From Janthinobacterium sp. LM6 (lineage in GTDB: Bacteria; Pseudomonadota; Gammaproteobacteria; Burkholderiales; Burkholderiaceae_D), in assembly GCF_002002885.1 (NCBI RefSeq), contig NZ_CP019510.1:248001-312000 (forward strand): a stretch of DNA of 64,000 nt. Reading direction: 5' to 3'. This document shows, piece after piece, positions 39,862-49,913 of this stretch. Under the pieces are notes generated by a model that was not told the origin of the DNA, did not search any database, and saw only the letters and a program-made list of their open reading frames with translations. Numbering within the stretch: the stretch's first letter is position 1; every line of letters starts with the position of its first letter. Made by a program: the position numbers and the translations under genes.

Positions 39862-40620
39862 TTATGGCTTCTTGAAACCGTACTTGGCGAGGATGGCTTG
39901 CGCCGGCGCCGTCTGCAGGTAGCTGACGAAGCGCTTCGCTTCAGCGGCATTGCCGCTGCCCTTGATGGTGGCGATCGGATACAGCACGGGCGCGTCCAAT
40001 GGCACGTCCAGCACCACGTTCACCTTGTCTTTCATGATGGCCGCGTCGGTGGCGTAGACAAAGCCCGCATCGACTTCGCCGCGCGCCACGTAGTCGAGCG
40101 ACTGGCGCACGTTCTGCGTGCCGATGGCCTTGGGCTGCACGGCGTCCCACAGCTTCGCCTTCTTCAGCGCGCCTTCGGAGTAACGGCCGACGGGCACGCT
40201 GGCCGGATTGGCGATGGCCACGCGGGTCACGCCCTTGTGCGTCAGGTCGCTCAAGTTCTTGATGCCCAGCTTGCTATCGTGCGGCACGATCAGCACCAGG
40301 CTGTTGCCGACGAAGTCCATGCGGTCGGCCGGCAATACCAGGCCCTGCTTTTGCGCCGCATCCATGGTTTCCTGGTCGGCGGAGGCAAACACGTCCACGG
40401 GCGCGCCCTTGACGATCTGTTGCAGCAGCACGCCCGAGGCGGCGAAGTTCAAGGACACCTTGCTGCCCGGATACTGCGCCTCGTAGCTCTGCGCCGCATC
40501 CTTGAACGCATTCGTCAGGCTGGCCGCGGCCGACACCACCACTTCGCCGGCAAGGGCGGAGGTGGCGGCGGTGGCCAGCAGGGCGGTGCCAAGCAGGCGG
40601 GCGAGGGAGGTGAGGCGCAT
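39862..40620 (-). CDS. modA: Molybdate-binding periplasmic protein
   Basis: A 252-residue substrate-binding protein with a signal peptide (about 1-24, ending TSALA). Family marks are VVVSAAASLTNAFKDAAQ near the mature N-terminus and NFAASGVLLQQIVKGAPVDVFASAD, whose serines and backbone hold molybdate. The ATG at 40620 is chosen because the signal peptide starts there. It is the first gene of the mod unit, about 37 bases downstream of the ModE box. Confidence 0.95.
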   Translation of the reverse strand: MRLTSLARLLGTALLATAATSALAGEVVVSAAASLTNAFKDAAQSYEAQYPGSKVSLNFAASGVLLQQIVKGAPVDVFASADQETMDAAQKQGLVLPADRMDFVGNSLVLIVPHDSKLGIKNLSDLTHKGVTRVAIANPASVPVGRYSEGALKKAKLWDAVQPKAIGTQNVRQSLDYVARGEVDAGFVYATDAAIMKDKVNVVLDVPLDAPVLYPIATIKGSGNAAEAKRFVSYLQTAPAQAILAKYGFKKP

Positions 40621-40656
40621 GATCGTATCCTTGTAAAGTGAACGGTGAACAAGGAG

Positions 40657-40680
40657 CGTAATATACACTTATATATAGCG
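40657..40680 (-). promoter_or_regulatory. ModE box upstream of modA
   Basis: CGTAATATA (40657-40665), six bases, then TATATAGCG (40672-40680) matches the ModE operator pattern CGNNATATA-N6-TATATNNCG. It sits where a repressor would block the modA promoter. Confidence 0.85.
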
Positions 40681-40786: not shown

Positions 40787-41569
40787 ATGGGATACGCAGC
40801 GCTACTGCTTGGCCCCTTGATGCTCCTGGCGGTCATTGTTCTGGCATTGCTCATCGAGAGGCGGCATCCCCTGCAACAACAGCCTGCGGGGGCGTCACGC
40901 TTCAATCTTGCGTATATGCTCATCTATGCCGCCAGCGGCGCCATGCTGGCCCCGCTCACGGCCATCGTCACGGTACAGTTTGTCAATGCGGCCGGCGGCG
41001 GGCTCATCAATCTAGCCTCTTCAGGCTGGATGCTGGCGCCGGCCTTCATCGCGTATGCCCTCTGCATGGATTTTCTGGAATACGTCTTTCATCGCGTGCA
41101 ACACCACGTACCCGCCCTGTGGGCCATGCATTCCTTCCATCACAGCGATACGGCCATGAATGCCAGCACAACGACGCGGCACTATTGGGCCGAAGCGGGC
41201 ATCAAGGCGCTGAGTATCTATCTGCTGGCGGGGATCTTATTCAAGACCAACATGGTGATTCTGGGAATGTACGGGATGCTGGGCTTGTATCATGTTTTCC
41301 CGCACATGAATGTCCGGGTCGGCTTTGGCCGTTACTGGATGCTGTGCAATTCTCCGCAGTACCATCGCGTTCATCACTCGGTGCAAGCCGAGCATTTCAA
41401 CTGCAATTTCGCGGGGCTGTTCCCCGTCTTCGACTGGCTGTTCGGCACCCACCATATTCCCCGCGCGGGAGAGTATCCCCCGACGGGCCTGGACACGGGC
41501 AAGGCGCCGGGCACCTTGCTTGACGCGCTGACGTGGCCGGTGCACAGCAAGACCCCGTCCATCCCCTAG
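40787..41569 (+). CDS. Sterol desaturase / fatty-acid hydroxylase family protein
   Basis: A 260-residue membrane diiron hydroxylase. Four helices occupy about 5-120. The histidine clusters are HRVQHH, HSFHHSD and HRVHHSVQAEH, which bind the two irons. Substrates in this family include fatty acids, sterols, carotenoids and ether lipids; none can be chosen here. It starts at 40787 and is divergent from modA. The TAG stop overlaps the stop of the convergent BASS gene by four bases. Confidence 0.9.
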   Translation: MGYAALLLGPLMLLAVIVLALLIERRHPLQQQPAGASRFNLAYMLIYAASGAMLAPLTAIVTVQFVNAAGGGLINLASSGWMLAPAFIAYALCMDFLEYVFHRVQHHVPALWAMHSFHHSDTAMNASTTTRHYWAEAGIKALSIYLLAGILFKTNMVILGMYGMLGLYHVFPHMNVRVGFGRYWMLCNSPQYHRVHHSVQAEHFNCNFAGLFPVFDWLFGTHHIPRAGEYPPTGLDTGKAPGTLLDALTWPVHSKTPSIP

Positions 41570-42570
41570 ACGCGCACCGCCGCCGCCTCGTCGCGCCGCG
41601 CATACTTTTGCGCGATCACGGCGCAAATCATCAGCTGAATCTGGTGGAACAGCATCAGCGGCAGGATCACCATGCCCAGCGAACGCGTGGAAAACAGCAC
41701 CTTGGCCATGGGCACGCCGCTGGCCAGGCTTTTCTTCGAGGCGCAAAAGACGATGGCGATTTCATCTTCCTTGTTGAAACCCAGACGGCGGCTGACAAAG
41801 GTCGAAATACCCAGCACCAGCGCCAGCAGCAGCAGGCTGATCAGGCCCAGGGCCACCAGCGTTTCCACCGAAATCGTATGCCACAGACCTTCGCTGACGG
41901 CTTCGCTGAAGGCCGTGTAGACCACCAGCAAGATCGAACCCTGGTCGACGTATTTCAGGGTGGCCTTGTGGCGGTCGACCCAGCGGCCGATCCAGCGGCG
42001 CAGGAACTGGCCGGCCAGGAAGGGCAGCAGCAGTTGCAGGACGATGGACAGCACGGCGTCCACCGACGACTTGCTTTCCGCGCCCTTGGCCACCAGCAAG
42101 CCCACCAGGATGGGGGCGAGGAAAATGCCGATGAAGTTCGAAGCCGAAGCGCTGCAGATGGCGGCCGGCACGTTGCCGCGCGCCATGGCGGTCATGGCAA
42201 TTGAGGACTGCACGGTGGACGGCAACGCGCACAGGAACAAGATGCCCATGTACAGGTCGGGCGTCAGGAAGGTCAGCGCCAGCGGACGCAGTGCCAGGCC
42301 AAGCAGAGGAAACAGGACAAAGGTGCTGGCCAGCACCAGCAAGTGCAGGCGCCAGTGCATGGCGCCTGCCACCACGGCTTCGCGCGACAGCTTGGCGCCG
42401 TGCAGGAAGAACAGGGCGCCGATGGCGACGGTAGTGATATTGCCGAAGACCACAGCCGTCTGGCCCGTGCAGGGCAGGAAAGTAGCCAGCGCCACGGTAA
42501 CGAGCAGGGCGATGGTGAAGTTATCGGGTTTCAGATTGCGCAACAGGGCAGCGGGAGAAAAAGAAGACAT
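41566..42570 (-). CDS. Bile acid:sodium symporter family (BASS) transporter
   Basis: A 334-residue membrane protein with about ten helices of the SBF-like/YfeH group. Visible family marks are LFLCALPSTVQSSIAMTAMARGN with the polar crossing region, and IVFCASKKSLASGVPMAKVLF near the C-terminus. Members move organic anions with sodium; the substrate here is unknown. The ATG at 42570 (MSSFSPAALL) is preferred over 42621. It overlaps the sterol desaturase-family gene tail to tail by four bases. Confidence 0.9.
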   Translation of the reverse strand: MSSFSPAALLRNLKPDNFTIALLVTVALATFLPCTGQTAVVFGNITTVAIGALFFLHGAKLSREAVVAGAMHWRLHLLVLASTFVLFPLLGLALRPLALTFLTPDLYMGILFLCALPSTVQSSIAMTAMARGNVPAAICSASASNFIGIFLAPILVGLLVAKGAESKSSVDAVLSIVLQLLLPFLAGQFLRRWIGRWVDRHKATLKYVDQGSILLVVYTAFSEAVSEGLWHTISVETLVALGLISLLLLALVLGISTFVSRRLGFNKEDEIAIVFCASKKSLASGVPMAKVLFSTRSLGMVILPLMLFHQIQLMICAVIAQKYARRDEAAAVRV

Positions 42571-42740
42571 GCGGTAGCCTGGTAACGACGCAGCCGTGCA
42601 ACGCTGTGCCGGGGATGACAAACAGCGCCGGGAGCGGCGCCAGTGCTGGCTATTCTACTTGTATTTCCCTGCTCCTTGCCCGGCTCCTTGCCTGGCGGCA
42701 TCGGCATGGCTGGCCGGGTAAAACCGTGCGGACAAAAAAA

Positions 42741-42762
42741 TGCCCTGTCCGCAGACAGGGCA
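42741..42762 (-). terminator. Rho-independent terminator after the BON gene
   Basis: On the minus strand TGCCCTGTC / GACAGGGCA with a 4-base loop is followed by seven T (A-run 42734-42740 on the plus strand). It lies about 40 bases past the BON gene stop. Confidence 0.9.
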
Positions 42763-42803
42763 ACCCGGAGTAAAGTACAGCGCGAGGCGTTACCGCGAGG
42801 GGC

Positions 42804-43166
42804 TTAGCCGGCGGCTTTGACTTTCAGCTCGTTCTTGATTTCTTTCACGCCGCTCACGGAAGCGACGATCTGCACGACGCGGTCACCCGCTTCGGCGCTC
42901 GGCACGTCGCCCGACAGGACGACCACACCTTGCTGGGTTGCTACCTTGACGGGCAGGGCAGCGGCTTGCGCATCGGCGCTCAGGGCGGCCTTGGCCGAGG
43001 AAGTGATGGTTTCATCAGGGACGGCGGCGGCGGCGTTGGCGGCCACGACGGTGTCAGCAGGAGCTTGTGCTTTTGGGGCGGAGTCAGCTGCATGCGAAGC
43101 GGTGATCGAGGCGCCCGACAGTACGATAGCGGCGACCAGGGTATTGAACAGTTTCGATGTTTGCAT
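42804..43166 (-). CDS. BON-domain periplasmic protein
   Basis: A 120-residue exported protein. The signal peptide is at about 1-27 (ending SHA). One BON domain follows at about 50-118: ITSSAKAALSADAQAAALPVKV, then QGVVVLSGDVPSAEAGDRVVQI and VKEIKNELKV. OsmY-type BON proteins bind phospholipid or help envelope integrity under stress. The ATG at 43166 is used. Upstream lies a perfect sigma-54 promoter with an IHF site and two GlrR-type sites, so it is probably switched on by the GlrK/GlrR system encoded alongside. Confidence 0.9.
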   Translation of the reverse strand: MQTSKLFNTLVAAIVLSGASITASHAADSAPKAQAPADTVVAANAAAAVPDETITSSAKAALSADAQAAALPVKVATQQGVVVLSGDVPSAEAGDRVVQIVASVSGVKEIKNELKVKAAG

Positions 43167-43252
43167 GGTAGTTCCTCTCAATGAAGTTAAAAGCTTCTTA
43201 CTTGGCTATAGCAATAAACAGCAACACTTTGAAGCGTCACATCTACCCATAC

Positions 43253-43268
43253 AGCAAGCACCGTGCCA
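43253..43268 (-). promoter_or_regulatory. Sigma-54 (-24/-12) promoter of the BON gene
   Basis: Read on the minus strand: TGGCAC-GGTGC-TTGCT, a perfect match to TGGCAC-N5-TTGCW. Transcription would start near 43242 and give a leader of about 75 bases before the ATG at 43166. Confidence 0.9.
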
Positions 43269-43287
43269 GCTTTTAATTTTCCTTGAA

Positions 43288-43300
43288 AATCAACGACTTA
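43288..43300. promoter_or_regulatory. IHF consensus site
   Basis: AATCAACGACTTA matches WATCAANNNNTTR exactly. It lies between the sigma-54 promoter and the two activator sites, where DNA bending is needed. Confidence 0.6.
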
Positions 43301-43361
43301 TACTCGAACTCGATTTTTCCAGCGTGTTTCAGACGGATCTGGCCAGAAAATCCGGGCTTTT

Positions 43362-43379
43362 TGTCGCCTGGCAGCGACA
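43362..43379. promoter_or_regulatory. GlrR-type activator site A
   Basis: TGTC, ten bases, GACA: the TGTC-N10-GACA pattern described for GlrR in enterobacteria. Its centre lies roughly 130 bases upstream of the predicted start of BON transcription. The flanks are inverted too (TGTCGC/GCGACA). Confidence 0.8.
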
Positions 43380-43438
43380 GCTTGTGGCAACAATATCAAT
43401 GTTTCAATCTAAGCCGCTGATTTTTAACACTTTATTTT

Positions 43439-43456
43439 TGTCGCTATTCAGCGACA
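43439..43456. promoter_or_regulatory. GlrR-type activator site B
   Basis: A second TGTC-N10-GACA, 77 bases from site A and closely similar to it (both read GTCGC-N4-CAGCGACAG after a T-run). It overlaps the last codons and stop of glrR itself. Confidence 0.8.
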
Positions 43457-44811
43457 GGGTCGCCATCGGCCCGGAACAGGGCCGGCGTCAGCTCGTATTT
43501 CTGCAGTAAACGGTAGAACTCCGTGCGGTTGCGGTCGGCCAGGCGGGCCGCGTCGGCCACGTTGCCATCCGTCAGGCGCAGCAATTGGATCAGGTAGTCG
43601 CGCTCGAAGCGCTGCTTGGCTTCGTTATAGCTGAGCGCTTCGAGCGACGGCACGCGCAGCGCGCGCTGCACCAGGGACAAGGGCACCAGCGGCGCCGTGG
43701 CCAGCGCGCACACCTGCTCGACCACATTGACCAGCTGGCGCACGTTGCCGGGCCAGGGCGCCGCCACCAGGGCCGTGAGGGCGTCGGGCGCGAAGCCGTT
43801 CAGGGGTTTCTGGTACTTGGCCGCCAGCTTCTGCAGGAAATGGTTGGCCAGCAAGGCGATGTCTTCGCGGCGCTCGGCCAGCGGCGGCAGGGTCAAGGTG
43901 ACCACGTTCAGGCGGTAATACAGGTCTTCGCGGAATTGCCCTTCCGCCATGGCAACATCGAGGTCGCGGTGCGTGGCCGACAGGAGCCGCACATCCACCG
44001 GACGCGTCTGGTCGGCGCCCACGGGGCGCACGGCCCGCTCCTGCAGCACGCGCAGCAACTTGACTTGCAGCGGCAAGGGCATGTCACCGATCTCGTCCAG
44101 AAACAGGGTGCCGCCGTCGGCCGCCTGAAACAAGCCTTCGCGGTTGCCGACGGCGCCCGTAAACGAACCTTTGACGTGACCGAACAGTTCCGATTCCAGC
44201 AGCTGCTCGGGGATGGCGCCGCAGTTGACGGCGATGAACGGCGCCTTGGCGCGGCGGCTGGCGTTGTGCAGCGCGCGCGCCAGCAATTCCTTGCCCGTGC
44301 CGCTGGGGCCGCGGATCAAAATGCTGGCGTCGGACCCGGCCACCAGCTTGGCTTCGGCCAGCAGCTCGGCCATCTGCGCGCTGCGGCTGATCAGCTCGGC
44401 ACGCCAGCTCTCGTCGCCGGACGCCGGCGCCGGCATGACGGTGGACAAGTTGATGGCGTACGCCACCTTTTCCATGAGCAGCTTGCCGTCGAACGGCTTC
44501 GTCAGATACGCAAACGCGCCGCGCGCCGTGGCGTCGACGGCATCGGGAATGGTGCCGTGGGCTGTGAGCAAGATGACGGGCAGGGCCGCGTGCTGGCGGC
44601 GGATTTCATCGAACAGGGCCAGGCCGTCGCGACCCGGCAATTGCACGTCGGTAATAACCAGGGCCGGCAATTCCACGGCCAGGCGCGCCAGCGCCGCTTC
44701 CGCGCTGCCCACGGCCGTCACGCGGTAGTTGCCCGCCTTCAAGCGGATGGTCAGCAGGCGCAGCAGGTCGGGATCGTCGTCGACCAGCAAGATGTGGGCG
44801 TGCTCGCTCAT
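43444..44811 (-). CDS. glrR: Sigma-54-dependent response regulator GlrR (QseF)
   Basis: A 455-residue NtrC-type activator. The receiver (about 5-120) has Asp55 in [11 protein letters not shown]. The AAA+ domain (about 140-370) carries GPSGTGKE, and GSFTGA as the sigma-54 contact loop (S in place of the usual A). The C-terminal Fis-type helix-turn-helix is [20 protein letters not shown]. Phosphorylated GlrR activates sigma-54 promoters from TGTC-N10-GACA sites. The gene is last in glrK-qseG-glrR and overlaps qseG by four bases. Confidence 0.93.
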
Positions 44812-45350
44812 TTCGGCGCTCCCGCGGCGGGGCGCACGGACAGGCTGCGCTCGATGTTTTTCAGCGCTTCCAGCTTTTCATTGAGCAAGTCGATGCGGCG
44901 CTGGGCGTCGCGCAACTGCGTGTTGAGCTTGTCGATGCTCTCTTCCTGGCGACGCAGCTCCGCATACTGGCTGCCCAGTAATTGCGCCAGCGGCGCCAGC
45001 AGCTGCGCCTCCTTGCCCGTCGCCGTCAGCAAGGGTTCCAGCAAGGCTTGCGCACGGGCCAGGTCGCCGGGACCGCGCAGGGCCGCTTGCAGCATGGCGC
45101 GGCGCAGCGTGTTGTGCGGCGCGTGATCGGCCTTGGCCAGGTCCAGCTGCGCTTTCACCAGTTCCGACGGCGTCATCAGGCGCAAGGCGCTTTGATACGC
45201 GAGCAGTTCGGCCAGCTGGGGGTCCATCACCACCACCACGCGCGGCGGCGTCTGCACCAGCACGGGCGTCTGTTTGGCGGGCTTGGCGGCGCAGGCGCCC
45301 AGCAGCAGCGCGCAGGCGGCCATGCCGGCCAGGGAAATTCTCGTCATCAT
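44808..45350 (-). CDS. qseG: QseG-like outer-membrane lipoprotein
   Basis: A 180-residue lipoprotein. The signal peptide ends in the lipobox LLLGAC (cysteine about residue 23). The rest is helical, with a likely coiled coil at about 125-170 (ELRRQEESIDKLNTQLRDAQ). In enterobacteria QseG sits between the kinase and regulator genes and stimulates the kinase. Here it overlaps both neighbours by four bases (ATGA), so the three are one coupled unit. Sequence similarity to QseG is weak; the call leans on size, lipobox and position. Confidence 0.8.
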   Translation of the reverse strand: MMTRISLAGMAACALLLGACAAKPAKQTPVLVQTPPRVVVVMDPQLAELLAYQSALRLMTPSELVKAQLDLAKADHAPHNTLRRAMLQAALRGPGDLARAQALLEPLLTATGKEAQLLAPLAQLLGSQYAELRRQEESIDKLNTQLRDAQRRIDLLNEKLEALKNIERSLSVRPAAGAPK

Positions 45351-46759
45351 ATGGGCAGTTCTATCCGAAAATGCGCGCCGGCGGGGCGCGGTAAAAGAGT
45401 GACGCTGCCATCGTGGGCGGCGATATATTCGCGCACGATGGACAGGCCGATGCCATTGCCGTTGCGCGCGCCGGCCGCCTGGCGCACGCCCTGGTAAAAC
45501 GGCTCGAAGATGCGCGCGGCATCCTCGGGCGCCACGCCGGCCCCCTCGTCGATGCAATCGATGCGCACGCGGCCGCCTTCGCCAGACAGGGTGAAACGCA
45601 CGGTGCCGCCTTCCGGGCTGAAGCGCACGGCATTCGACAGCAGGTTCGCCAGCACAGTTGCCAGCTTGTCGCGGTCGGCCTGCACGATCAGCGATTCGCC
45701 CTGCACCTCGACCGTCAAACGGCGCGCCAGCCATTGCAGGCGCTGCCCGGCCACCACATCTTGCAGCAAGACCAGCAAGTCCACCTTGCTGTGCGCCAGA
45801 TGCTGGGCGTCAAAAGCGGCGGTATTGTAGCGCAGCAAGTCTTCGATCTGGGTTTGCAGCGAGGCCGTGTTTTGCTGCAGGATGCCGGCGATTTCGCGCT
45901 GGCCCTCGCTGAGCTTGCCGGCCACCTCGTCTTCCAGCAAGGCCACGCCTTCGCGCAGGGCCGCCAGCGGCGTCTTCAGCTCATGCGAGATGTGGCGCAA
46001 AAAACGTTCCTTGTCGGCATCGAGGTCGGCCAGGCGCTGGCGCAGCCAGTCGAGCTGCTGGCCCAGGCGGCGCGTGTCGGCCGGGCCGCCGACGACGATG
46101 GGCTGGTCGTAGCGCTTGTCGCCCAGGCGCTCGATGGCCGTCTCGATGCGGCGCAGCGGGCGCGACAACAAAAAGCCGAAGCAGGTAGCCAGCACGGCCG
46201 CCAGCAGCACGGCGCCGCCCACCAGCACGCCCAGCAAGCGGCGCTGGCGTTCCAGCTCGGCCAGCAGGGCATCGTTGCGGCTGCCGATTTCCGTCTTGCT
46301 TTCGCGCGCCAGGCTGTCATTGATCTGCGTCATGCGGGCAAACGCGCGGTACACGACGGCGTGACCGTCGCGCTTGCGGCGCTTACCCGCTTGCAAGACT
46401 TCCCACGCCGCTTGCGCCTGCACCGTCCATTCGTCGGCCAGCTGCGGGGCGAACTCGGGCGTGGCGCGGTTCAGCACTTGCAGCGCCGCCGTCGCTTCGT
46501 CGCGGGCCGCCGCGTAGCGCTCGCGGAAGACGGGGTCGTCCAGCACGAGGAACTGGCGCGCGCTGCGCTCCATGGCCAAGGTGCGCTCGGACAGGCGCTG
46601 CGACTGTTCCGTCAGGGCAATCGCCTGCGCCGCCGTCTCGCGCCCCAGCCGCGCCAGGTGTTCCAGGGTCAGCAGGGCTTGCACGGAGGTGGCCGTCAAA
46701 ATGCCCGTCGTCAAAATGAAGGCGGCAAATAGCAGTTGGCGAAAGGAAAGTCGGGACAA
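45347..46759 (-). CDS. glrK: Sensor histidine kinase GlrK (QseE-like)
   Basis: A 470-residue membrane kinase. Helix 1 is at about 8-28 (LLFAAFILTTGILTATSVQ), then a periplasmic helical sensor (about 30-160), helix 2 (about 165-188) and HAMP. HisKA has LRHISHELKTPLAALREGVALL, a stretch typical of QseE/GlrK, and the ATPase domain has GNGIGLSIVREYIAAH. It phosphorylates GlrR under envelope stress. The TTG at 46759 is chosen because GAAGG lies eight bases upstream. A GTG at 46831 would add 24 residues but has no ribosome-binding site. Confidence 0.9.
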   Translation of the reverse strand: MSRLSFRQLLFAAFILTTGILTATSVQALLTLEHLARLGRETAAQAIALTEQSQRLSERTLAMERSARQFLVLDDPVFRERYAAARDEATAALQVLNRATPEFAPQLADEWTVQAQAAWEVLQAGKRRKRDGHAVVYRAFARMTQINDSLARESKTEIGSRNDALLAELERQRRLLGVLVGGAVLLAAVLATCFGFLLSRPLRRIETAIERLGDKRYDQPIVVGGPADTRRLGQQLDWLRQRLADLDADKERFLRHISHELKTPLAALREGVALLEDEVAGKLSEGQREIAGILQQNTASLQTQIEDLLRYNTAAFDAQHLAHSKVDLLVLLQDVVAGQRLQWLARRLTVEVQGESLIVQADRDKLATVLANLLSNAVRFSPEGGTVRFTLSGEGGRVRIDCIDEGAGVAPEDAARIFEPFYQGVRQAAGARNGNGIGLSIVREYIAAHDGSVTLLPRPAGAHFRIELPI

Positions 46760-46944
46760 GATGGGCGCCTTCGGTTCAGTCTGGAGTGCAAAAGGCGCAT
46801 GGTACGCTAAGCGTTCATCGCGAGGCGCCACCTGTCAAAAAATAGCCAATCTGGCAATATTGTTGCTTTTGCGATCGACAAGCAAGCCACGGCGGCGGCG
46901 CGCAGATACTCCTAGTACAATAGGGAAAAGCTTCATACAGGCAT

Positions 46945-46979
46945 CAAAGTGGCCCCGGCCCTGGCATTACGCCACTTTG
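46945..46979. promoter_or_regulatory. Inverted repeat between glrK and the M16 peptidase
   Basis: CAAAGTGGC (46945-46953) and GCCACTTTG (46971-46979) are perfect 9-base arms 17 bases apart, about 65 bases upstream of the peptidase start. It is a candidate operator for an unknown regulator. Confidence 0.35.
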
Positions 46980-47042
46980 CCCCCACATGTGATGCAGCCC
47001 CACCGACACTCCGAATCACCTACCGCAGAGATCCCATACCGC

Positions 47043-49913
47043 ATGAGCACATTTGAAAAAGTCAGCAGCAACTTCATTCCAGTCTTGCAGGCAACCATCG
47101 AGCAATATGTCGAGCCAGCAACGGGCATGCGCCATATCCACATGCATACCGAGCAGGCTGAGATGGTGTTCCTGGTGGCCTTTCCCACTGTGCCGGAAGT
47201 CAGCGACGGGCGCGCCCACATCCTCGAGCACCTGGCCTTGTGCGGCTCGTCCCGCTACCCGGTGCGCGACCCCTTCTTCTCGATGCTGCGCCGCTCGACG
47301 GCCACCTTCATGAATGCGATGACCTATCCGGACCGCACCGTGTACCCGTTCGCCAGCACCGACCGCAAGGATTTCTTCAACTTGCTCGACGTCTACCTGG
47401 ACGCCGCCTTCTTCCCGAACCTCGATTACCTGAATTTCCGCCAGGAAGGCTGGCGCCACGCGTTCGAAGGCGACAAGCTGGTGTACCAGGGCATCGTCTT
47501 CAATGAAATGAAGGGCGCCTTCAACAGCCCCATGCGCGCGCTCGACAGCGGCATCGCCAGCGCCTTGCTCAAGGGCACGACGTATGAAGTGGAATCGGGC
47601 GGCGATCCGCTGAACATTCCCGAGCTGACGCATGCCATGCTAAAAGAATTCCACGCCAGCCACTATCACCCTTCGCAAGCCGTGATCATGACCTCCGGCA
47701 ATATCGAAGCGTCGGCCGTGCAGGAGCAGGTCGCGGAGCGCGTGCTGTCCAAGCTCAGCGGTTTCAGCCCGCGCCGCCTGCCGCAGCTGGCGCCCGCGTG
47801 GACGGCGCCGCAGGAAAATATCGTCAAAATTCCATCGCAGGAAGCGCGCGACGATGAATTCGGCCTGCAATTCGCCTGGCTGATGGGCGAGTCGAGCGAC
47901 CCCATCGCCTATTACCACGCGCATCTGCTGTCGCACGGCTTGCTGGGCGAATCGTCGGCGCCCGTCATGCGCGCCATGGAATCGGCCGGCTATGGCCGCC
48001 CATCGGACATGAATGGCCGCGACGCGGGCATCCGCCAGATGGTGTTCCACATCGGCATGGAAGGTTTAACCAAAGAACAGATCGCCGACGCGCACCAGCG
48101 CATCTGGACGGCCCTGGAAGAAACGGCGCAAGAGGGCATTCCCGCCGCCGTGCTGCACGCGGCCTTGCGCGATATCAAATACAGCCAGCGCGAAATCAGC
48201 AGCGGCCGCATGCCGTATGGCCTGGGCCGCCTGCTGCACGCCTTGCCGCTGGCCATGTACGACGGCAACGTGATGGACGCGTTCGACAATGCGGCCATCC
48301 TGGAAACCCTGGAACAGCAGATCGAAGACCCGGAATTCTTCAAGCAGCTGGTACGCGAACTGATCGCCAATCCAACTCGTTTGACGACGCACGTGGTGCC
48401 CGACAGCGCCTACTTCACGGACCGCGCCGCGCAGGAAGACGCCAAACTGGCTGCCCTGCAGGCGCAGCTGACGGACGCCGAGCGCGAGCACATCATCGCC
48501 GAGTCCGCCGCGCTGGAAGCGCATCAGCAACTGCCGTCGAATTCGGAAGTCTTGCCGCGCATCCGCCCCGGCGACGTCAGCGCGCTGCCGCGCCCAGCAC
48601 TGCCGATTCCTGCCGCCGTCGACGGCGCCGTGGCCTTCAGCATTGCCTCAAACGGCATCAGCTATGCCAACGTGCTGTACGACGTGTCGGGCTTGCCGGA
48701 AGCGTCGTGGCCATGGCTGCGCCTGTACACGGACCTGGCGCCGGAGCTGGGCGTGGGCGACATGTCGTTCGACGATGCCAGCGCCTGGCGCCAGAGCATG
48801 GTGCCATCGTTCCACATCGGCCTGGAAGCCATTCCCCGCCCGCAACAGGCGATGCGCGTGGAATTGTCGTTCTCGGCCAGCGGCTTGCGCGAAGAACACG
48901 CGGCGATCGCCGCCGTGCTGTCGGCCTGGATCGCCAAGCCCCGCTTCGATGAAGAAGAGCGCCTGGCTTTCCTGATCGAAAGCCTGGTGCAAGACAAATT
49001 GAGCAGCCTGGCCGAATCGGGCAACCGCTACGCCATGCTGGCCGCGGCGGCACCGCTGTCGCCCACGCGCCGCTTCGACGACATCGTCGGCGGCCCGGCC
49101 GCGCTGCCGTTCTACCGCCGCTTGCAGCAGCTGAGCAAGACGTCCGAGGGCTTGCAGGAAATCGCGCGCGAGCTCGACACCCTGCACGCGCACATCATCG
49201 CCCAGCAGCCGACCGTGCTGTGCGCCGGCCTGGAGCAGGATGGCATCACTCTGGCCCGCTTGCTGGAATTGCCGGCAGCCAGCACGGATACGGCCGCAGC
49301 GACGGCAACGCCAGCGCCGGCAGCCTTGCCGCTGGCCAACACGGCCCTGCATGCGACGAGCCAGATCAACCATTGCTTCGTTTCCTGGGCCGTGCCTGGC
49401 GTACACAATCCGGACGCGTCCGCCCTGGCCGTCGCCGCCGAACTGATGACCAACCAGGTGCTGCATACGGCCCTGCGCGAAAAAGGCGGCGCGTATGGCG
49501 GCAGCGCCAGCTATGCGGCCGGCGCCGGCACGTTTACGCTCAGTTCCTACCGCGATCCGCGCCTGGCCGGCACGTACGCCGACTTCGGCACGACCCTGGA
49601 TCAAATCCTCGACGGCGATTTCTCGCAGGAACAAGTGGAAGAAGCCATCATCTGTGTCATCAAGGGCCTCGACAAGCCGCATTCGCCGTACGCGGAAGCG
49701 CTGACGGCGTGGAACATGCAGCAGCGCGGCACGACGGAAGCCGTGCGCCAGCAATTCCGCACCGGCGTATTGACCTGCACCCTGAGCCAGATCAAGGAAG
49801 TCACGCGCACCTGGCTGAAAAACGGCCAGCAGAGCCGCGCCGCGTTTGCGGGCAACACGACGCAAGACCTGGCGGGCCTGGACGTGGTCGATCTGCTGGC
49901 GCTGGCCAGCTAA
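47043..49913 (+). CDS. M16C metallopeptidase (presequence protease-like)
   Basis: A 956-residue zinc peptidase of the insulinase/PreP type. The inverted zinc motif HILEH gives His59, Glu62 and His63; a third ligand is expected further on near NEMKGAF. Four M16 half-domains fill the length, with the C-terminal R/Y motif near KGGAYGGSASYA. PreP-like enzymes degrade short peptides inside a closed chamber. No signal peptide is seen, so it is probably cytoplasmic. The ATG at 47043 (MSTFEKVSSNF) is chosen since the conserved region begins there; longer in-frame starts exist. Confidence 0.92.
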   Translation: MSTFEKVSSNFIPVLQATIEQYVEPATGMRHIHMHTEQAEMVFLVAFPTVPEVSDGRAHILEHLALCGSSRYPVRDPFFSMLRRSTATFMNAMTYPDRTVYPFASTDRKDFFNLLDVYLDAAFFPNLDYLNFRQEGWRHAFEGDKLVYQGIVFNEMKGAFNSPMRALDSGIASALLKGTTYEVESGGDPLNIPELTHAMLKEFHASHYHPSQAVIMTSGNIEASAVQEQVAERVLSKLSGFSPRRLPQLAPAWTAPQENIVKIPSQEARDDEFGLQFAWLMGESSDPIAYYHAHLLSHGLLGESSAPVMRAMESAGYGRPSDMNGRDAGIRQMVFHIGMEGLTKEQIADAHQRIWTALEETAQEGIPAAVLHAALRDIKYSQREISSGRMPYGLGRLLHALPLAMYDGNVMDAFDNAAILETLEQQIEDPEFFKQLVRELIANPTRLTTHVVPDSAYFTDRAAQEDAKLAALQAQLTDAEREHIIAESAALEAHQQLPSNSEVLPRIRPGDVSALPRPALPIPAAVDGAVAFSIASNGISYANVLYDVSGLPEASWPWLRLYTDLAPELGVGDMSFDDASAWRQSMVPSFHIGLEAIPRPQQAMRVELSFSASGLREEHAAIAAVLSAWIAKPRFDEEERLAFLIESLVQDKLSSLAESGNRYAMLAAAAPLSPTRRFDDIVGGPAALPFYRRLQQLSKTSEGLQEIARELDTLHAHIIAQQPTVLCAGLEQDGITLARLLELPAASTDTAAATATPAPAALPLANTALHATSQINHCFVSWAVPGVHNPDASALAVAAELMTNQVLHTALREKGGAYGGSASYAAGAGTFTLSSYRDPRLAGTYADFGTTLDQILDGDFSQEQVEEAIICVIKGLDKPHSPYAEALTAWNMQQRGTTEAVRQQFRTGVLTCTLSQIKEVTRTWLKNGQQSRAAFAGNTTQDLAGLDVVDLLALAS

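Follow-up and report, generated by a model that had tools for sequence, protein, structure and literature searches.

A predicted GlrR, IHF and sigma-54 control module between glrR and a BON-domain gene of Janthinobacterium, and exchange of the gene behind it among related genera

The BON-domain gene directly behind the glrK-qseG-glrR operon of Janthinobacterium sp. LM6 is predicted to be driven by GlrR and sigma-54, a reading to which a probability of about 0.9 is assigned from sequence comparison. Taken across genera, the same comparison favours, with more reserve, the view that GlrR carries a conserved enhancer-IHF-sigma-54 socket into which non-homologous envelope genes have been plugged. 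GlrR would then be a general regulator of envelope demand, with an output re-assigned by gene replacement.

Within the window (the whole stretch of 64,000 nucleotides that was analysed), all genes of the locus are read from the minus strand. A gene for a glrK-like sensor histidine kinase with Pfam HAMP, HisKA and HATPase_c domains (45347..46831) is followed by one for a qseG-like lipoprotein (44808..45353) with an LLLGAC lipobox near the N-terminus; the latter lies within a longer listed ORF and its start codon was picked by eye. Next comes glrR (43444..44811), encoding a sigma-54 response regulator of 455 amino acids. The predicted GlrR sites are also on the minus strand: the distal site B, TGTCGCTGAATAGCGACA (43439..43456), covers the last glrR codons and the stop codon, and the proximal site A, TGTCGCTGCCAGGCGACA (43362..43379), lies 77 bp from site B. 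An IHF-consensus site, WATCAANNNNTTR, read as AATCAACGACTTA on the plus strand (43288..43300, plus strand), is exact and begins 32 bp ahead of the -24 element. The sigma-54 -24/-12 element itself, TGGCACGGTGCTTGC (43254..43268, minus strand), has the form TGGCAC-N5-TTGC, GG and GC standing at the fixed distance, with a T at 43253. The start of site A is 111 bp from the start of the -24 element, and the site-to-promoter gap is 93. The original prediction had placed the two TGTC-N10-GACA sites, the IHF consensus and the sigma-54 element correctly in the window sequence, and the overlap that it described between site B and the 3' end of glrR was borne out.

The predicted target (42804..43166, minus strand) encodes a protein of 120 amino acids with a single BON domain (Pfam E 1.3e-16, 61 bits against a cut-off of 27), predicted to be secreted as judged by eye. 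The listed ORF starts at a TTG at 43181; the ATG at 43166 heads a signal-peptide-like N-terminus and is the likelier start. With transcription predicted to start at approximately 43242, the 5'UTR would be about 75 nt. A pattern scan of 42700-43600 yielded three terminator-like sites against 1.2 expected. One of these, a hairpin with a 9-pair stem and a T7 run (42741..42762, minus strand), lies directly 3' of the BON gene, which therefore looks monocistronic. Where the BON transcript is predicted to begin, the same kind of scan alone listed as terminator-like a possible small hairpin of 8 pairs, 3 of them G-C (43221..43240, minus strand). By look only, the neighbouring minus-strand genes encode a membrane protein resembling bile-acid/sodium symporters (41566-42621) and a molybdate-binding, ModA-like protein (39862-40668).

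GlrR (NF011695) was the best NCBIfam match of the regulator at 593.6 bits, with the next match at 409.5 and the cut-off at 763, and Pfam assigned receiver, sigma-54-interacting AAA+ and Fis-type HTH domains. The nearest named relative, at 99% identity, is from Janthinobacterium; the recognition helix, RNRTEFY, is common to the window GlrR and that of three enteric loci (L189, L193 and L194). An RpoN gene is present in the window genome. GlrK models were absent among the 25 best NCBIfam matches listed for the kinase, none of which reached its cut-off, and the glrK name therefore rests on position in the glrK-qseG-glrR order. The lipoprotein gave a weak C-terminal match to QseG (NF007997, E 3.1e-4) and a match to the YfhG lipoprotein family (PF13942, E 9.4e-4), both under cut-off. 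GlrK and QseG are thus named mainly by position. The best NCBIfam match of the BON protein was OsmY, at 52.3 bits against an equivalog cut-off of 174; the outer-membrane stress lipoprotein model PRK11023 scored 28.7 bits, below its equivalog cut-off of 184. OsmY is under sigma-S control and DolP under sigma-E control; both have a BON domain and a signal-peptide-like N-terminus in common with the window protein, which possesses one BON domain whereas OsmY and DolP possess two.

The original prediction took TGTC-N10-GACA as the enterobacterial GlrR pattern, and this agrees with the consensus printed for enteric GlrR, TGTCN10GACA, in the relevant passage of PMC8745638. Applied to the three enteric loci, the same scan found sites 2.6-3.1 kb before glrR, at about the expected place of glmY, and a sigma-54 element with at most one mismatch in L189 and L193, not in L194. 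The enteric scan is a partial positive control.

Conservation was assessed over 99 distinct GlrR loci from 74 genera, 28 from the family and 71 from the order. At a search threshold of E<=1e-120, 28 of the 145 genomes searched in the family encode GlrR, as do 155 of the 399 in the order. The region 3' of glrR was read in 73 of these 155, made up of the 71 new loci and of G000 and G026 from the family set. The order loci were picked by the authors, one or a few per genus and not at random. The 73 genomes cover 67 of 70 genera, g75, g88 and g192 being left out for want of a listed place or because of a contig end; L107-L110 were left out as repeats of family genomes (L034, L033, L038 and L022), and one copy was taken from genomes with two GlrR copies. 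When one mismatch was allowed in each element, 78 of the 99 loci had a site and then a sigma-54 element from -60 to +400 of the glrR stop, against a mean of 0.05 in 20 rounds of dinucleotide shuffling and none in the reverse complement or inside glrR. The module had no mismatch in the site in 56 of the 99, and in 51 the promoter was preceded by two sites that are separated by 55-85 bp and together have no more than one mismatch. Among the 21 loci without a module in this interval, four have elements elsewhere: L090 has sites further on, and a module is found unlinked in the same genome (L046, through L148) or upstream of glrK (L056 and L105). No module was found in the remaining 17.

The original prediction had asked for conservation upstream of BON orthologues; this check was run, and sites and promoter were kept in all 28 family loci. 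Site and sigma-54 element, each with at most one mismatch, lie behind glrR in every one of them (0.00 in 20 shuffles), the sigma-54 element being exact in 22, and a BON gene follows in 26. All eight Janthinobacterium loci carry exact TGTC-N10-GACA at site A and, at the same place, at site B; their IHF site also keeps its position (seven exact, one with one mismatch). The proposal that GlrR acts on the BON gene is accordingly upheld as a prediction. GlrR itself is patchy in the family, being found in 28 of 145 genomes and 9 of 44 genera, a distribution suggestive of repeated loss or transfer. Several order genomes have two GlrR-like genes (e.g. G173, G225, G234 and G259), and a module lies directly behind the second copy of G234 (L261).

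The sites co-occur with GlrR. A strict pattern with a gap of 60-90, which misses the window genome itself (gap 93), matched 70 places in 59 of the 399 order genomes, against 2 places for the reversed control; 47 of 155 GlrR-bearing genomes had matches, as did 12 of 244 GlrR-free genomes. The core TGTCG-N8-CGACA was present at 42 of the 70 places. The other 28 were divided between GlrR-bearing (16) and GlrR-free (12) genomes, and all 12 in GlrR-free genomes are without this core; several have TGTCA...TGACA, a palindrome that together with a sigma-54 element probably belongs to another sigma-54 activator. With a gap of 72-102, the strict pattern matched in 26 of 145 family genomes, 20 of the 28 with GlrR and 6 of the 117 without. 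A close BON orthologue (E<=1e-12) was found in 19 of the 145 and adjoins glrR in 18 of these, the reported match in G133 lying elsewhere.

It is improbable that the sigma-54 promoter is worked by another enhancer-binding protein (NtrC, a PrsR-like protein or the like), with glrR a mere neighbour. The genome does offer 13 other places that match GlrR across the AAA+ region (E<=5.1e-40), and the strict matches in GlrR-free order and family genomes would fit such an activator. However, every one of the 42 TGTCG-N8-CGACA places in the order scan belongs to a genome with GlrR, the close BON orthologue occurs only with GlrR (19 of 19), the recognition helices of four paralogues in the same genome are unlike that of the window GlrR, and like sites precede unlinked BON genes (L148 and L254).

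Other sigma-54 elements with related sites were noted in these scans. TGTCA...TGACA before a sigma-54 element recurs at L157, L158 and L263, with strict matches in G247, G321 and G351; this module is also found in GlrR-free genomes, and at L158 a small DsrE-like-looking ORF follows. Two GlrR-bearing family genomes, G067 and G107, had a strict match at a place other than the glrR slot: that of G067 (L134) overlaps a long open frame and precedes an ORF for a repeat-rich secreted protein, and that of G107 (L135) precedes a Crp-like ORF. Sigma-54 elements with TGTCAC-type sites stand before repeat-rich secreted-protein ORFs at three places in family genomes (L134, L138 and L139), two of the three genomes being without GlrR.

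The geometry of the module is regular. Distances from the proximal site to the promoter (59 values) cluster at approximately 70-72, 81-86, 91-94, 101-106 and 111-113 bp; ten fall outside the main 70-113 range, nine of them larger (123-170) and one of 60. Taking one value for each of 54 genera, the periodicity at 10.5 bp was R=0.63, a value reached in none of 20,000 control sets jittered by up to half a helical turn, and periods of 7, 8, 12, 13 and 14 gave only 0.12-0.25; the genera are not independent samples, so there are fewer independent events than these statistics imply, and the p values serve as rough guidance only. The phase is roughly common to the different slot types, being (of 10.5 bp) 8.3 for BON, 9.2-9.5 for glycine-zipper and 7.0-7.2 for OpgG/OpgH. 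The outermost sites stand 63-68 bp apart in 37 genera, 77-78 bp apart in four, including Janthinobacterium, and 96-98 bp apart in two, classes that step by about one and about three helical turns. The stretch from proximal site to promoter contains an exact IHF consensus at 29 of the 78 loci (0.38 in shuffled sequence) and one with at most one mismatch at 64 (9.2 shuffled); 54 of the 78 have it on the opposite strand at 30-33 bp ahead of the -24 element. The helical phasing is strong sequence evidence for a looping activator. Insertions and deletions between site and promoter seem to be tolerated in whole turns, which fits a looping enhancer-binding protein. The enteric spacings are not all on the same phase grid, with 170 and 202 bp in L193 and 188 bp in L189.

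Taken singly, the elements could be chance or coding-constraint matches, the BON gene being served by an ordinary promoter. About one exact TGTC-N10-GACA is expected per 64 kb by the authors' own chance estimate, and a lone site is no surprise; the window contains sites A and B only. Exact TGGCAC-N5-TTGC occurs once in the window and 34 times in the genome, just about twice the 19 occurrences of its reversed control, and a lone exact element is by itself neither striking nor rare. Site B, moreover, lies within coding sequence. The part that is not chance is the combination of a pair 77 bp apart with a common 12-base core. This longer core, TGTCGC-N6-GCGACA, has three exact copies in the genome of 6,288,464 bp. 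The third (3426760) falls in a Fur/Zur-like ORF and was taken as chance, a search of the surrounding 800 bp that allowed up to two mismatches having found no -24/-12 element; five one-mismatch sites that were looked at (L002-L006) likewise had no sigma-54 element at one mismatch or fewer within 800 bp. The pattern TGTC-N10-GACA-N72-102-TGGCA-N6-TTGC has one match in the window genome, at the BON promoter, and its reversed control has none in all 145 family genomes; a looser pattern matched 10 places in the window genome against 2 in the control. The recurrence of the arrangement in 78 of 99 loci as against 0.05 when shuffled, the helical phasing, the fixed register of the IHF site and the failure to find a sigma-70-type promoter in 42700-43600 (0.2 expected) all speak against coincidence, which is very unlikely. 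Because it is decisively conserved across loci, the arrangement is judged to be real.

What stands behind the module varies. Genes within 1.4 kb in the 78 slots were assigned to BON (38), EF-hand/BON (5), a glycine-zipper group (14), OpgH (6), OpgG (2), an L073-type family (2) and a cyanophycin-synthetase-like class (1), with no class given for 10; the search for slot genes reached 1.4 kb past glrR, and the gene that gives the label may lie behind another ORF. Naming was by Pfam on 20 representatives, with MdoH/OpgH models over cut-off for L061 and L082. The glycine-zipper gene (L075, L081 and L094) or EF-hand gene (L080) starts 0.4-0.7 kb behind glrR. The slot genes are mostly envelope proteins.

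These slots bear on the suggestion that GlrR and sigma-54 do act here, with feedback on glrR or an untranslated RNA as the main purpose and the BON gene incidental. The neighbouring GlrR target of enteric bacteria is indeed a small RNA, glmY, according to passages of PMC6075780 and PMC8745638, and site B overlaps glrR. The promoter nevertheless points away from glrR into the BON gene, whose leader is about 75 nt and which is directly followed by a terminator-like hairpin; no Rfam family reached gathering score in 42500-47200; and one of a few recurring protein groups is found within 1.4 kb in 68 of the 78 slots. There is very little likelihood that the BON gene is incidental.

The reading in which GlrR and sigma-54 serve the BON gene gains from modules at other places. 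The 71 order loci and 32 named loci were inspected on the glrK side, the family loci reaching just 1.5 kb upstream. A divergent module 5' of glrK was found in six of the 71 (L043, L056, L069, L105, L112 and L113) and three of the 32 (L171 in Dechloromonas, L174, and L175 in Propionivibrio). Its sites and sigma-54 element lie some 2.1-2.6 kb ahead of glrR and point outwards from the operon, at spacings of 80, 91-93, 114, 156-158 and 168 bp. By look, the ORF behind it is bactofilin-like in eight of nine cases, of the ...GARLIVGPDVKLKGAEILDCD... type, the module of these eight being 2.1-2.4 kb ahead of glrR, and resembles OpgH in L056. The GARLIVGPDVKLKGAEILDCD type matches Pfam-confirmed bactofilins, and L069 and L171 carry identical sequence there. 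These divergent modules add support to the GlrR reading over its rivals. The window holds no second, divergent module, its sole exact sites being A and B behind glrR. A one-mismatch sigma-54-like element, TGGCAATATTGTTGC, lies at 46852-46866 (plus strand), just 5' of glrK and pointing away from it; six such one-mismatch matches were found against 10 expected by chance, and no exact GlrR site is near 46852-46866.

Unlinked modules in GlrR-bearing genomes precede BON genes (L148 and L254), a glycine-zipper protein (L255), a WecG/TagA-type glycosyltransferase (L161) and small secreted-looking proteins (L251, L252 and L258). Three GlrR-bearing genomes have bactofilin genes, identified by Pfam, with a GlrR-like site and sigma-54 promoter (L250:594-1280, L253:1203-1778 and L256:1228-1818), the L250 module being 3 kb from glrR. 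This sequence pattern suggests a cell-shape branch of the GlrR regulon, and the unlinked targets have mostly envelope or cell-shape functions. The weightiest case is the L148 genome: GlrR is on another contig with no module beside glrR (L046), and the BON gene has site and promoter of its own; its position away from glrR argues for a real link between regulator and target, not mere neighbourhood. It is scarcely credible that the inverted repeats act in the glrR RNA, as hairpins or terminators, instead of binding protein, and the terminator reading was rejected. Each repeat has perfect six-base arms that could form a hairpin, and site B is at the glrR stop codon. But no T run follows the repeats on the coding strand, neither was called a terminator, they keep a helical phase relative to the promoter for which a terminator has no use, and the motif also stands before unlinked genes and divergent genes 5' of glrK.

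On a quick GlrR tree the slot types were clustered, with at least eight changes among the assigned types. Among the BON-bearing rows, those with OpgG/OpgH form a group of their own (support 89, not starred); the cyanophycin-like slot is placed within the BON-bearing rows of the family. In that slot (L022/L110), a cyanophycin-synthetase-like gene replaces BON, with an NCBIfam match under cut-off on the part read; the class is unexpected for an envelope regulator. The simplest reading of these comparisons is that the switch stayed as the gene behind it was replaced several times. In places the socket would be partly written into the last codons of glrR and kept in helical register. A second socket, upstream of glrK and pointing in the opposite direction, would drive bactofilin in some lineages. 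Downstream slots also occur in single loci among the 32 of 80 named loci scanned (L169-L200): Methylophilaceae L177, a group that may belong to the same order in the taxonomy used, gammaproteobacterium L183, Desulfobulbaceae L181, where the two sites are 67 bp apart, and Nitrospirota L187, the distance from site to promoter being 91 bp in both L181 and L187.

A mechanism can be proposed for the window locus. The state of the envelope, presumed to be the input signal, would be sensed by GlrK with the QseG-like lipoprotein, leading to phosphorylated GlrR. This would bind both TGTCGC-N6-GCGACA palindromes, one of which lies within the 3' end of glrR, and IHF would bend the DNA between the GlrR sites and the promoter. 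The AAA+ ring of GlrR could then remodel the RNA polymerase-sigma-54 complex poised at TGGCAC-N5-TTGC and open the promoter. The monocistronic BON gene would be switched on and its product made and exported, presumably for a role in the envelope.

The arrangement is like the GlrK-QseG-GlrR (QseE-QseG-QseF)/glmY system of Enterobacterales in its regulator family, near-identical recognition helix and probable kinase-lipoprotein-regulator order, and like enteric glmY control in predicted IHF assistance and a predicted sigma-54 promoter, features described for the enteric system in passages of PMC6075780. In contrast to the enteric system, where a small RNA target lies ahead of the operon, a protein gene lies downstream of glrR here, one enhancer is within the regulator's own 3' end, and no known RNA family was found in 42500-47200. 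The activation of rpoE by GlrR/QseF in E. coli (PMC6075780) is alike in that GlrR and sigma-54 act in envelope homeostasis; there the target is a sigma factor, whereas here a secreted envelope protein is the predicted direct target. Sigma-54 has been portrayed as a controller of the cell exterior, with targets that serve the exterior and QseF-like activators listed as a group, in passages of PMC3162934. The terms opgG, mdoG, OsmY and GlrR are absent from the main text of that article, and none of its passages on Burkholderia or BON bears on a GlrR target.

Control by GlrR, sigma-54 and IHF is known in enterics for glmY and rpoE, and the GlrR/QseF work in the literature covered concerns enteric bacteria. 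In the open-licence literature, no GlrR target in Burkholderiales-type genera was found in print; an earlier regulon prediction may exist in subscription papers. As far as was found, three things are new: a protein-coding target that neighbours glrR outside the enterics, a socket kept in helical phase, and targets that are exchanged. A direct protein-coding output of GlrR can now be named, as a prediction, across many Burkholderiales-type genera, and the locus plainly exemplifies how a regulatory element can be kept as its target is exchanged, with a geometry that is testable. In different lineages, periplasmic-glucan synthesis by opgG/opgH, bactofilins and glycine-zipper proteins are predicted to respond to one and the same envelope sensor. 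If this is true, it would help to identify what GlrK senses outside the enterics.
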